A stretch of DNA of 64,000 nt from Dongia sedimenti (GTDB lineage: Bacteria; Pseudomonadota; Alphaproteobacteria; Dongiales; Dongiaceae). The translations under genes were made by a program, and so were the position numbers. Shown piece after piece: positions 9,291-61,802 of the stretch (the stretch's first letter is position 1; every line of letters begins with the position of its first letter). The notes under the pieces were generated by a model. That model was not told the origin of the DNA. It saw nothing but the letters and a program-made list of their open reading frames with translations, and ran no database searches. The stretch covers positions 124,001 through 188,000 of the forward strand of contig JAUYVI010000006.1 in the NCBI GenBank assembly GCA_030715195.1, written 5' to 3'.

Positions 9291-9442
9291 CTGCATATTC
9301 CCGAATTCATGCGCTGCATCCTGAAGACGCGACGCGCCGACTGTGGTATAGTCCGCGCTTGCCCTCCGACCCGTCCGCCGAAGCGCGAAGGCGGAAGCGC
9401 GCAGCGCGTAGGCGGGCGCTGTTTGAGATTGTGAATGCCGCA
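9291..9442 (+). repeat. Dispersed repeat block, copy A; possible structured RNA
   Basis: This block recurs at 59159-59304 on the same strand. Shared landmarks in the same order are CTGCATATTCC, GAATTCAT, GTGGTATA, TGCCCTCCGACCCGTCCGCC and TTGTGAATGC. A promoter-like TATAGT is at 9347-9352. Directly after it, GCGCTTGCC (9355-9363) can pair with GGCGGGCGC (9411-9419) if two U-G pairs are allowed. The other copy keeps a stem at the same place with different bases, which favours an RNA structure over chance. Strand is given by the promoter-like element. Confidence 0.6.
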
Positions 9443-9488
9443 CGGGAGAACCGCATCCACCGTGGTGCGGGACCGCTGGCTCGCCCGC

Positions 9489-9619
9489 AACGCAGACAGC
9501 ACGCAGACGCAGACAGACTTGCGTTCAAACTCTCCCCAACCCGGCGCGCGGCGATGTCTGCATGTCTGTGTGACCGGGTGGACGGAAGTGTTGTTGGCCC
9601 AGTGCTTTAGTGCGCTCAC
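9489..9619. repeat. Tandem repeat unit 1 (131 bp)
   Basis: First of three imperfect units. It opens with AACGCAGACAGCACGCAGAC and closes with GACGGAAGTGTTGTTGGCCC and AGTGCTTTAGTG. Inside, GTCTGCATGTCTG faces the opening GCAGAC runs as an inverted repeat. Confidence 0.7.
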
Positions 9620-9754
9620 AACGCAGACAGGACACAGACAAGGTAAGGTTTGCGCCCAGACTTCCCATGCCACGGCGCGCATCGGCGATGTCTGCCTGGT
9701 CTGCGTGAGCGTGTGGACGGAAGTGTTGTCGGCTCAGTGCTTTAGTGAGTCCGC
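9620..9754. repeat. Tandem repeat unit 2 (135 bp)
   Basis: Second unit, opening AACGCAGACAGGACACAGAC, with GTCTGCCTGGTCTGCG in the middle and the closing GACGGAAGTGTTGTCGGCTC and AGTGCTTTAGTG. It is closest to unit 3. Confidence 0.7.
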
Positions 9755-9850
9755 AACGCAGACAGGACGCAGACAAAGGGAAGTTTGCGCTCAAGCTTCC
9801 CAATCGGCGCTGTCTGCTTGGTCTGCGTAACCGGGCGGACGGAAGTGTAG
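9755..9850. repeat. Tandem repeat unit 3 (partial, about 96 bp)
   Basis: Third unit, cut short after GACGGAAGTGT. It shows the clearest fold. The outer arms CGCAGACAGGACGCAGAC (9757-9774) and GTCTGCTTGGTCTGCG (9812-9827) enclose a perfect inner stem GGGAAG (9778-9783) / CTTCCC (9796-9801). Confidence 0.7.
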
Positions 9851-9910
9851 CCGAAGACATCGGCTGAAAAGATGTTCGTGACCTTGCGTTTGATCTCGGT
9901 GGCCATCGAC

Positions 9911-56884: not shown

Positions 56885-58216
56885 TTGTCTGCTAGCTTTC
56901 AATCGCAGGGCGGATCGCTGAAGCCCGGCCGTAAGGCCTGGGTGAAGATCGCGGCCGTGTTCTGCCTCCTGATCGGTCTCGCGGCCGGGGCACCGGCGGC
57001 CCTGGCGCAGGACGAGCTCAAGATCGCCGCGGTGGTCAACGACGACGTGATCACCCAGCTTGATGTCTTTGCCCGGCTGCGCGCCGCGATGCTCTCGGCA
57101 CGCCTGCAGGACACGCCCGAGAATCGGCAGAATCTGCTGCCGAACGTGATGCGCTCCCTGATCGACGATCACCTGAAGGCGCAGGAGGCGAAGGCCCAGG
57201 GCGTCACCGTCGGCGACGGCGAGGTCAATGCCCGGATCGCCGGTCTGGCCGGCCGGAACAACATGTCGCGCGAGGATTTCGAATCCATGCTGGCCAGCAA
57301 CGGCATCCTGGTCTCGGCGCTGGCCGACCAGATCCGGGCCGACATCGCCTGGAGCCGCCTGGTGCAGCGGAAGTTGCGCGCCACGATCCGCATCACCGAC
57401 GCCGAGATCAACGAGTCTCTCGCGCGGGCGAAGTCGGCGCGGGGCAAGAACGAGTATCGGCTCTCGCAGATCTTCCAGGCGATCGATTCGCCGAAGGATG
57501 CGCCGACCGTGCAGCAAGCAACCCAACGCCTGCTCGATCAGCTCCAGAGCGGCGCCGATTTCGCCTCGCTCGCGCAGGAATTCTCGCAGGACACCAGTGC
57601 CGCCAACGGCGGCGATATCGGCTGGATCCGCGCCGACGAGGCCGATCCCGCGGTTGCCGCCGAGCTGGCGCGCCTCGGCGGCGGGCCGGAGGTGAAGGGC
57701 AAGTTGATCGGCCCGGTCCAGGGCACCGGCGGCTACTACCTGGTGCGGATCGAGGATGTACGGCAGGCGACCGATTCCGCGGTGGCGCCCGGCTCGGTGC
57801 ACCTCATTCGCCTGCTCTGGCCGCTGGCGCCGAACGCCTCGGAAAAGGAAGTGCAGTCGGCGCAGGAGCAGGCGGACGGCTTCGCCGGCAAGGCCGCGCA
57901 TAGCTGCCAGGAATTCCAGACCCTGGCGGAGGATGCGGCTTCGGCGCGGTTCGACGATCTGGGCCGGGTCCCGGTCGACGACATGCCGCCCGAAATCCGC
58001 AACATGGTGATGACCCAGCAGGTCGGCGAACCCAGCAACGCGATCCGCGGCGACGGCGGCGTGGCGATCTTCGTGGTCTGCGACCGGGGTGATACCAACG
58101 GCGAGGTCTCCCGCGTCGCGATCGCCGACCGGCTCGCCGCCGAACGGCTGGAGACTCTTGCGCGCGGCTATCTAAGCGACCTGCGCCGCGCCGCTTATAT
58201 CGACATCCGGCTATGA
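56885..58216 (+). CDS. surA: Periplasmic peptidyl-prolyl isomerase / chaperone SurA
   Basis: 443 residues: signal peptide (to ALAQ, about residue 42), SurA N-domain ([20 protein letters not shown], then [15 protein letters not shown]), one clear PpiC rotamase domain ([11 protein letters not shown] through GGDIGWI) and a weaker second. It carries outer-membrane proteins such as LptD through the periplasm. TTG start at 56885, with GGAG upstream. It overlaps rsmA by 4 nt. Confidence 0.93.
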
Positions 58217-59082
58217 CCGACGAATTGCTGGCCAAGGACGGCCTGCCGCCGCTGCGCGAGGTGATGCGCCGCAACGGCATCGAGCCCAAGCGCAACCTCG
58301 GCCAGAACTTCCTGTTCGACCTCAACCTCACCCAGAAGATCGCCCGCGCCGCCGGAAAACTCGACGAAGGCACGGTGATCGAGGTTGGCCCCGGCCCCGG
58401 CGGCCTGACCCGCGCCCTGCTGATGGAGGGTGCCAGGAAGGTGATCGCGATCGAGCGCGATGCCCGCGCGCTCCCCGCCTTGGCCCAGGTCGCCGCCCAT
58501 TATCCGGGCCGGCTCGAAGTGGTCGACGGCGATGCGCTCAAGACCGATGCCGCGGCCCTGGGCGAGGCGCCGCGCCGCATCGTCGCCAACCTGCCTTACA
58601 ACATCGCGACCCCGTTGCTGCTGCAATGGATGGAGCAGGCGGAAGCTTTCGCCTCGTTGACCCTGATGTTCCAGAAGGAGGTCGCCGACCGCCTGACCGC
58701 GCAGCCGCGCACCAAGGATTACGGCCGGCTCTCGATCGTGACGCAATGGCGCTGCACGGTGAAGCAGCTGTTCGACATCCCGCCCAAGGCCTTCATCCCC
58801 CCGCCCAAGGTGACCTCGACCGTGGTGCAGCTGATCCCGCATCCTAACGGGCCGCTCTATCCCGCCGACCCCCGCGACCTCGAAGCGGTCGCCGAAGCCG
58901 GCTTCGGTCAGCGGCGGAAGATGCTGCGCCAGTCGCTCAAGACCCTGCCGGTCGAAGCCAACGCGCTCCTCGACCGCGCCAACATCCGCGATACCGCCCG
59001 GGCCGAAGAACTCAGCATCGAGGAATTCTGCCAACTCGCCCGCGCCTTTGCGGAAATGCGGCGGCGCGGGCGGAGCGGGTAG
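58213..59082 (+). CDS. rsmA: 16S rRNA dimethyladenosine transferase RsmA (KsgA)
   Basis: 289 residues. The SAM motif is [10 protein letters not shown], and the catalytic NLPYNI motif marks an N6-adenine dimethylase. It methylates two adenosines in the last helix of 16S rRNA. ATGA overlap with surA. The usual pdxA gene between surA and rsmA is absent here. Confidence 0.96.
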
Positions 59083-59158: not shown

Positions 59159-59304
59159 CTGCATATTCCTGAATTCATCCGATGTCGCGCGGTTACACGG
59201 CGCACCGATCGTGGTATAATTGCTGCCTGCCCTCCGACCCGTCCGCCGATGCGCGGAAGCGCGTAGCGCGAAGGCAGGCGTTGATTGACATTGTGAATGC
59301 TGCA
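59159..59304 (+). repeat. Dispersed repeat block, copy B; possible structured RNA
   Basis: Second copy of the block at 9291-9442, with the same landmarks in the same order. It has a consensus TATAAT at 59215-59220, with TTACAC 16 nt upstream. It is followed by a perfect 7-bp stem GCCTGCC (59225-59231) / GGCAGGC (59273-59279). Within that, GCGC-GGAA-GCGC gives a small GNRA-loop hairpin. Confidence 0.6.
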
Positions 59305-59631
59305 TCGAAGTCGCGCGTGGCGTGACGGAAGCTGTTGCTGATTTGCAACCGGACCCAGCCCGGACAGGAAAAACGTTGCGTGAAAATTCCGCATTACACG
59401 GCGGGTCAATCTTCGGCGCGTGCATGGTTGCGCGCAGGACCGAAGCACGGGAACACGACGCGCTGTGCACCGAACTTGTACCCAGCTTTTACAGAACGCA
59501 GAATCGCTTCGCCCGCTCTAACCGGACAAAGAGCATTCATCTTAAGAAGCTTGAACTGACTTGAAGCGCCTCCAAAGCGTGGAGGCCGTAAAAGTGAATG
59601 GCGTTCGCACGCGACGTGTTTTGCTGCTCTG

Positions 59632-59655
59632 CAACGCAGACCCGACGCAGACAGA
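59632..59655. repeat. Single GCAGAC-pair motif related to the tandem units at 9.5-9.85 kb
   Basis: AACGCAGACCCGACGCAGAC matches the opening of the tandem units (AACGCAGACAGGACGCAGAC) except at the linker. It lies in the same order after the dispersed block as at 9.5 kb, suggesting a longer ancestral element. Confidence 0.5.
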
Positions 59656-59724
59656 ATCAAAACCCTGGAAACGCGATCGAACTGGCGCGCCGCCGCCGCA
59701 ACCTTTACCGGAGGTTTACGGAAT

Positions 59725-59763
59725 CAAAAAAGCCGAATGCCCGTGCTACGGACATTCGGCTTT
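59725..59763 (-). terminator. Intrinsic terminator of ettA
   Basis: A perfect 8-bp stem GCCGAATG (59732-59739) / CATTCGGC (59753-59760), followed on the minus strand by six T. A second stem TTTGAGC / GCTCAAA (about 59775-59799) lies between it and the gene. Confidence 0.9.
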
Positions 59764-59827
59764 CTGGATCAATGGTTTGAGCTGCCTGACGCGGCTCAAA
59801 TGCGCCGTCGCCGTAAACCCTCCGGGA

Positions 59828-61504
<1,677 letters not shown>

Positions 61505-61802
61505 GCTCGAACGCTCCAAAATCTCGGGATTGCCGGTCTTTTAGACGATCGGGCACGGAATCAGAAGGGGGCAAAGAAAAGAGAAGAAGGAACGGCCAAC
61601 AGCCCTGCCTAGGCTCATAAACTCAGCGTGAGACGCCTTTTGAATCACGGGCTTCGCGCCCGTGTGCCTCTTGTTCGCGTGGAGGAAATCCACTATTATT
61701 AGTATCAAAGCGCGTGCGTCCTATTCTTTAGCTGGGTCGTGCTGCGGATGGCAACCACAGCCGCGGGGGAGAAGCAGCATATCCTCCAGTAGAGATCGCT
61801 CG

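Follow-up and report, generated by a model that had tools for sequence, protein, structure and literature searches.

The 64-kb window analysed here, by which we mean the whole stretch of DNA at its full length, contains two similar blocks of sequence beginning at positions 9291 and 59159, and these raise the question of what kind of element they represent. A preliminary description had read them as a dispersed repeat with a promoter-like element and a stem kept through changes of its bases, and had proposed an undescribed small-RNA family or a mobile palindromic element. The landmarks on which it relied, namely CTGCATATTCC (9291 and 59159), GAATTCAT, GTGGTATA (9343 and 59211), an 18-nt core CCCTCCGACCCGTCCGCC and TTGTGAATGC, are indeed present in both copies, at or next to the positions reported. 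The copies are 76% identical over letters 10-155 of a 161-letter query (BLAST, E 9.5e-26), so the likeness is not due to chance. The described stem can be formed in both and is contained in both MFE folds; neither copy folds clearly better than dinucleotide shuffles, of which 30/200 and 110/200 equal or beat the two copies. In the 64-kb window there was no Rfam match at the gathering score, and ARAGORN reported nothing. Features are collected in Table 1; not listed there is a large gene on the minus strand, with copy 1 upstream of it, whose RTX-type calcium-binding repeats are matched only below the NCBIfam cut-offs.

Table 1. Positions of the two window copies, their arrays and the genes flanking copy 2.
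Feature	Position	Strand	Remarks
Copy 1 upstream box CTGCATATTCCCGAATTCAT	9291..9310	+	pattern match
Copy 1 -35 element GAC	9326..9328	+	conserved in scored heads
Copy 1 extended -10 GTGGTATAGT	9343..9352	+	start predicted near 9359
Copy 1 hairpin insert (stem of the preliminary description, 18-nt core, usual 7-nt spacer)	9353..9418	+	
Copy 1 boxA-like antitermination signal CTGTTTGAGATTGTGAA	9419..9435	+	pattern as in rRNA leader, GCTGTTTGACATTGTAA
Copy 1 array (three tandem units, spacing about 122-135 nt)	9485..9853	+	
Copy 1 array, CAGAC-type direct-repeat pairs	9493-9508, 9624-9639, 9759-9774	+	also inverted GTCTG-type stretches
rsmA (ksgA)	58213..59082	+	TIGR00755, E 2.5e-75; ends 77 nt before copy 2, same strand
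Copy 2 upstream box CTGCATATTCCTGAATTCAT	59159..59178	+	pattern match
Copy 2 -35 position, TAC in place of GAC	59194..59196	+	
Copy 2 extended -10 GTGGTATAAT	59211..59220	+	start predicted near 59227
Copy 2 hairpin insert and usual spacer	59221..59280	+	
Copy 2 boxA-like sequence TTGATTGACATTGTGAA	59281..59297	+	A within T run; inexact against boxA pattern
Copy 2 first direct-repeat pair, CGGAC-N6-CGGAC	59350..59365	+	
Copy 2 noncoding DUF2280-derived module 1	59470..59597	+	TGTAC/TTTAC pair; ends GGCCGTAAAAGT
Copy 2 direct-repeat pair, CAGAC-N6-CAGAC	59637..59652	+	
Copy 2 noncoding module 2, TTTAC pair	59696..59820	+	R1 E 7.6e-13 (module itself in model)
ettA	59828..61519	-	TIGR03719, E 2.9e-297; convergent, copy 2 array runs into it

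Copy number and host range

The proposal of a dispersed family with a promoter-like element is supported. The genome contains about 50 copies, not two only, and most of them have no stem region at all. A sequence-only model (R2), built from 29 copies that match it by construction, gave 67 matches at E <= 1 in this 6.1-Mb alphaproteobacterial genome. Merged by eye, these represent 50 places, of which 48 reach E <= 1e-3. These units are referred to below as heads. BLAST with copy 2 found 13 places, the short form of the head as query gave 43 matches at E <= 1, and the upstream-box pattern with up to three mismatches matched 21 times, as against none for the reversed-pattern control.

A search of the genome and its relatives with a covariance model had been suggested earlier; carried out with the sequence-only model, it yielded the 48 heads here but none in 60 relatives. 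BLAST likewise found heads in 0/60, and the best R2 match in these relatives (E 0.0029) was taken as noise, 45 of the 61 genomes having some match at E <= 1. The exact head pattern did not occur in the genome_contigs and viral_contigs sets, our own genome being left out. At the copy 2 locus rsmA was found in 17/17 genomes and the downstream neighbour was unmatched in the loci of 16 relatives, which are too distant to show an empty site. As far as compared, the head family is private to one genome. The 16S gene of this genome finds its best matches among plasmid records in Azospirillum brasilense (91.9%), and the host probably belongs to the Alphaproteobacteria close to that group. Gathering heads by similarity favours intact cores, yet decayed-looking ones are present, such as L103 (shifted -10) and L104 (damaged boxA), and low-scoring ones lie at C24:475179, C22:252420 and C23:497256.

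Anatomy of the head

In 29 aligned copies the head has a sigma-70-type promoter pattern, with GAC at -35, 18 nt, and an extended -10 element TGGTATRAT. When 41 heads were aligned on three boxes, with those below the cut left out (three for -10, two for boxA), the letters of GAC were kept in 35 (G), 37 (A) and 37 (C) of 38 scored copies, and T, G, T and A of TGnTA were invariant in 38/38. The third box, described below as boxA, has seven positions kept in 39/39 heads and five further positions in 37-38 of 39. Its distance from the -10 element is constant in 31/41 heads, one shorter in a single head and lengthened by an insert in seven, while in two the box was misplaced by the script.

Conservation is confined to these boxes. 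Pairwise identity among the 29 copies, whose alignment contains one gap, is 0.954 at -35, 0.871 at -10 and 0.954 at the fixed positions of boxA, as compared with 0.672, 0.562 and 0.506 for the spacer, the discriminator and the stretch after boxA; just upstream of -35 it is 0.333, where composition would give 0.286. The most similar pair among the 29 is only 84.5% identical, which argues against a recent burst, and a core at 87-95% beside near-random flanks would be hard to obtain by decay of a uniform burst. RNAalifold found no structure in 29 heads lacking the insert.

The boxA-like signal of the heads and the boxA of the rRNA leader

The sequence at the predicted start site of the heads, GCTGTTTGANATNGTNAA, matches the boxA of the genome's own rRNA leader, GCTGTTTGACATTGTAATAA, which is some 230 nt ahead of 16S; the 16S-23S spacer contains a similar sequence, TTGTTTGACATTGTAGA. 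The boxA pattern YTSTTTGANATNGTNA has 42 exact matches in the genome and none in the control. Three are the rRNA leader at the contig ends C11, C2 and C25, and the remaining 39 are at heads, one of these (C2:112779) being a second, opposite-strand copy beside a head. Thirty-eight of the 48 heads carry the exact pattern, and ten, window copy 2 included, deviate.

Two other origins of this box were considered. The rRNA promoter (TTGACA, TATAAG, then boxA about 75 nt further on) is unlike that of the heads, so boxA is not a by-product of a copied rRNA promoter; it is also nearer the start site in heads than in the rRNA leader. A coding segment (GCG CTG TTT GAN ATN GTN AA) was suggested by fixed first and second and free third positions, but the match to the rRNA leader boxA accounts for this codon-like pattern, and the box contains no conserved start codon.

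In gammaproteobacteria rRNA transcription is shielded from Rho by a complex for which boxA recruits NusB and S10 (PMC5725501, PMC12691694). A survey of 940 gammaproteobacterial genomes reported 407 putative boxA sequences within 50 bp of gene starts, with 0-7 per genome (PMC5725501).

The optional hairpin insert

The stem region is an insert between -10 and boxA, found in 7 of the 41 aligned heads, both window copies included, and adding 33-82 nt to the usual spacing. The preliminary description had taken the retention of the stem as a sign of selection on RNA structure and had pointed to further copies as the place to look for compensating changes. None were found in the named 9-pair stem: across the seven insert-bearing heads no pair has changed on both sides, and 81.8% of cells are paired, as against 82.9% in shuffles, although pairing is well above that of slid versions of the stem (35-53%). 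RNAalifold of the seven copies gave another helix, of 8 pairs, in which one pair has changed on both sides, and single-sequence fold z-scores of these heads range from -2.44 to +0.21. The insert is thus optional, and selection on the named stem is not supported. In an nhmmer search of contig C23 and the other loci supplied, the insert occurred only in the seven heads, with one further weak match (E 0.26). The 18-nt core, searched as its last 17 nt, was found exactly only in the loci that hold the two window copies (343 loci searched).

What survives of the proposed small-RNA family is that an RNA is plausible and that the window has no Rfam match, whereas its structured-RNA part is not supported, the named stem having no compensating changes. 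Nor is there support for a mobile palindromic element: no terminal repeats or target duplication were noticed in the head flanks inspected.

Noncoding modules downstream of the heads

Between the head and the next gene, a loose expression applied to 40 heads detected one to eight direct-repeat pairs, mostly with an 11-bp period, whose letters vary between modules (CAGAC, TTTAC, TGTAC, CGGAC, CCGAC, TTGAC). One module class is about 130 nt long. Thirty-three of 40 instances of it were aligned, five without a recognisable end, one coding and one truncated being left out, and a second sequence-only model (R1) was made from these 33 noncoding modules. It has 97 matches in the genome at E <= 0.1, the best in 30 relatives being E 0.0049. 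The best 79 of the 97, down to E 7.1e-5, were classified: 54 follow a head by no more than 1.5 kb, every one of them (54/54) on the strand of that head, 12 are DUF2280 genes (four of them, on the minus strand, assigned by eye) and 13 have no head nearby. Module 1 of copy 2, itself part of the model, matches at E 8.2e-24. Among the matches listed for R1 there is none in the copy 1 array (9485-9853), where a repeat pair CGCAGACAGGACGCAGACA is mirrored by TGTCTGCCTGGTCTGCG in three tandem units.

R1 recovers 12 of the 17 DUF2280 genes of this genome at E <= 7.1e-5 and three more at E 4.8e-4 to 0.0023 (15/17). Because a model made from noncoding modules finds these genes, the modules derive, as judged by homology, from DUF2280 gene starts, of which they are relics comprising the upstream repeat pair and about 30 codons. 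A start codon is kept in 0/20 modules that could be framed, and in-frame stops occur in 7/20 (13 could not be framed). RNAalifold detected no structure in the modules.

Modules also contain a third, inverted copy of the repeat. Comparison of the two letters before TTTAC with the two after GTAAA showed that CT goes with AG in 10/10 modules, GG with CC in 7/18 and CC with GG in 3/5; overall 52/99 letters match, against 37.9 when shuffled, and 8/5000 shuffles are as high. In DUF2280 genes with the pair before ATG, the match is present in L143 by choice of codons and in L140 and L144 with an amino-acid change, and it is absent from L142 and L145-L152. Among 39 non-redundant phage DUF2280 genes the inverted copy does no better than shuffles (145/500 as high). 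The matching letters may reflect shared descent of subfamilies.

A CRISPR array was rejected for these repeats, since letters and spacings vary within arrays, unlike near-identical repeats with unique spacers of constant length. Integron cassette (attC) arrays were dropped on sight, the repeat letters being variable.

DUF2280 genes here and in phages

This genome has 17 matches to DUF2280 (PF10045) without stops (L136-L152), while none were found in 30 relatives or in 384 other genomes drawn from the class. Elsewhere DUF2280 is a phage or prophage gene, for which 80 loci were kept of 117 on viral contigs, together with 12 from genome contigs. The next long ORF has a Pfam match to the terminase large subunit in 7 of the 14 DUF2280 loci inspected; four have no terminase match and three no long next ORF within reach. 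DUF2280 is also listed directly before the terminase large subunit in PMC7760358, the single mention of it found in a limited literature search.

Of 51 distinct upstream stretches from phages or prophages, 41 have a GAC/TAC direct repeat with a period of 10-11 bp within the 45 nt that precede the DUF2280 start (in 200 shuffles, 3.2 on average and never more than 8), which makes the repeat pair an old companion of the gene and, on this evidence, a candidate operator or packaging site. The predicted structure of the protein (mean pLDDT 80) has no match at E <= 0.001 in PDB or BFVD. Its weak matches include the G20C small terminase (rank 2 in PDB, E 1.1) and several BFVD entries named 'Terminase small subunit' (E 0.065-1), and the best from the search of solved structures were to ZapA (E 0.024 and 0.054).

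None of the 17 genes has a head within 3 kb or a boxA match within 13 kb. Around L136, the one neighbourhood read closely (the rest were looked at briefly), the genes to either side are ordinary. Two types of DUF2280 gene can be distinguished here, one with the repeat pair before ATG and one with several in-frame pairs that encode TQTGRRQ/TQTGHRQ linkers. The leaders of L136-L141 have no boxA match; they show a TATAAT-like box with a GC-rich inverted repeat soon after it, and CCGTGCCGGG..CCCGATAACGCGG units that recur.

Genome position and an associated insertion sequence

Neighbouring genes were taken from crude GC-frame calls. By these, 37/40 heads have an opposite-strand gene next; 25 of the 40 heads lie between convergent genes, seven behind a divergent start and two before a same-strand gene with a same-strand upstream gene, and six have no called upstream gene. 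With both neighbours called, 25/34 heads are in convergent gaps, as compared with 23/156 gaps longer than 80 bp on contig C23.

An insertion sequence (GGTAACGTCAA../GGTGACGTAAAGG..) is visible only through its ends, eight left and eight right, all of them at contig ends. Downstream of all eight right ends a head promoter follows within about 60 nt in one orientation (C2, C3, C5, C12, C21 and C26; L301, L302, L306, L310-L313 and L316). There are apparent 8-9 bp target duplications, for which the ends were paired by inference, and a ninth end with two mismatches is also beside a head.

Discussion

On balance, we think that the heads are probably sigma-70-type promoters joined to an rRNA-type boxA that drive noncoding arrays, a reading that implies no particular role for the RNA. 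It draws on four features established at the level of sequence, namely the conservation of -35, -10 and boxA, the match of boxA to the rRNA leader, the polarity of the modules and their homology to DUF2280. The head promoter would be active, and its transcript would begin at or shortly before boxA; NusB and S10 would bind boxA and render RNA polymerase resistant to Rho, and the untranslated array could then be copied to its end, as is the case for rRNA and CRISPR arrays. The array RNA, or the repeat sites in it, would matter to the cell in some way, keeping most copies under selection, and seven variants, the two window copies among them, would have an additional 5' hairpin ahead of boxA. The family may thus represent a group of long noncoding RNAs not described before. 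Counted against this reading are the 10 of 48 heads off the boxA pattern, the decay of some heads and TAC at -35 in copy 2, as well as a boxA closer to the start than in the rRNA leader and heads and modules without a consensus fold.

The alternative that fares best, although we consider it unlikely, is that a once-mobile promoter with a DUF2280-type module spread long ago and is now decaying, the conserved core being what selection during the spread has left behind. The state of the modules fits this, as they are degraded gene starts that have lost every start codon in the 20 framed cases and acquired stops in seven, and so do the absence of heads and DUF2280 from the relatives searched and the deviating heads, some of them clearly weak. 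Decay after spread, however, would erode core and flanks alike, and the 29 copies show a core at 87-95% identity with near-random neighbours and no near-identical pairs. The 17 DUF2280 genes, moreover, are all more than 3 kb from any head, and for the heads we noticed neither ends nor target duplications nor an enzyme that could mobilise them.

A more ambitious version of the promoter-boxA reading, which we hold to be rather improbable, is that from the start of a phage packaging gene the bacterium derived about 50 genes for antiterminated noncoding RNAs, with repeat sites that work in trans. As part of the same proposal, these sites could serve as decoys or regulators of the 17 DUF2280 paralogs or of incoming DUF2280-using phages, and paralog and repeat letters would have diversified together.

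It is also improbable, in our opinion, that the head is a REP-like extragenic element acting on DNA or at mRNA 3' ends, in supercoiling, mRNA stability or as a barrier between convergent genes, with an incidental likeness to a promoter. REPs are described as palindromic sequences of 21-65 nt and as reported targets of insertion sequences (PMC1525189). Like REP, BIME and REPIN elements, the heads are extragenic, present in dozens of copies, often between convergent genes (25/34, by crude gene calls) and a target of an insertion sequence, all eight right ends of which adjoin heads. REPINs coexist with transposase genes of the same origin, and the noncoding repeats here likewise coexist with a gene family of their own origin. 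Unlike these elements, the heads are not palindromic and have a directional core of promoter and boxA, no consensus fold and strictly polar modules, and the related gene is DUF2280, not a transposase.

That the arrays are DNA sites for DUF2280-type proteins, their repeats of about 11-bp period serving a putative small terminase for packaging or as operators, seems very doubtful. It leaves promoter and boxA unexplained; the GAC/TAC pair before phage DUF2280 genes, the terminase gene that follows half of the 14 loci and the match between inverted copy and pair are in its favour, whereas the match is no better than chance in phages and may come from shared subfamily descent, and no significant structural match was obtained for the DUF2280 model. 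In SPP1 pac, the small terminase gene has direct repeats across its promoters and its start (PMC4737164), which is comparable to the direct repeats immediately ahead of DUF2280, a gene that often precedes the large terminase; yet in SPP1/SF6 the repeats are reported to have barely affected binding by the isolated DNA-binding domain (PMC4737164). The repeats here also differ from pac in being many, chromosome-wide and outside any phage identified, with DUF2280 only a putative small terminase.

Compared with the leader of rRNA operons, on which NusB and S10 act, the heads agree in the fixed positions of boxA, in the sigma-70-type promoter that comes first and in the apparently untranslated body of the RNA. 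They differ in promoter sequence, in having boxA at or near the start in most copies, and in being units of about 40 dispersed copies whose body consists of DUF2280-derived modules. CRISPR array leaders with boxA were reportedly described by Stringer et al. in 2020. Such an array is a long noncoding transcript helped by an antitermination complex (PMC12691694), and the proposed logic of the heads is the same; the head arrays, however, are many, short and dispersed, and their modules vary, lacking equal repeats and unique spacers.

Known cellular boxA sequences outside rRNA are few per genome, while here about 40 dispersed promoter-boxA units are found in one. If the promoter-boxA reading is true, Nus antitermination would be used here more widely outside rRNA than in any other case we have met in a few literature searches, and it would become testable whether cells express non-CRISPR families of long noncoding RNA through antitermination. 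A limited search found no literature on boxA together with repeat elements. The ingredients, boxA, relics of phage genes and dispersed extragenic repeats, are of known kinds, and it is in their combination that any novelty would lie. The phage gene family DUF2280 is also seen amplified within a single genome, to 17 genes and dozens of noncoding modules. At one locus (L296, C2:112674-112794), a head is accompanied by a degenerate insertion-sequence end and by a second boxA-like sequence on the other strand.
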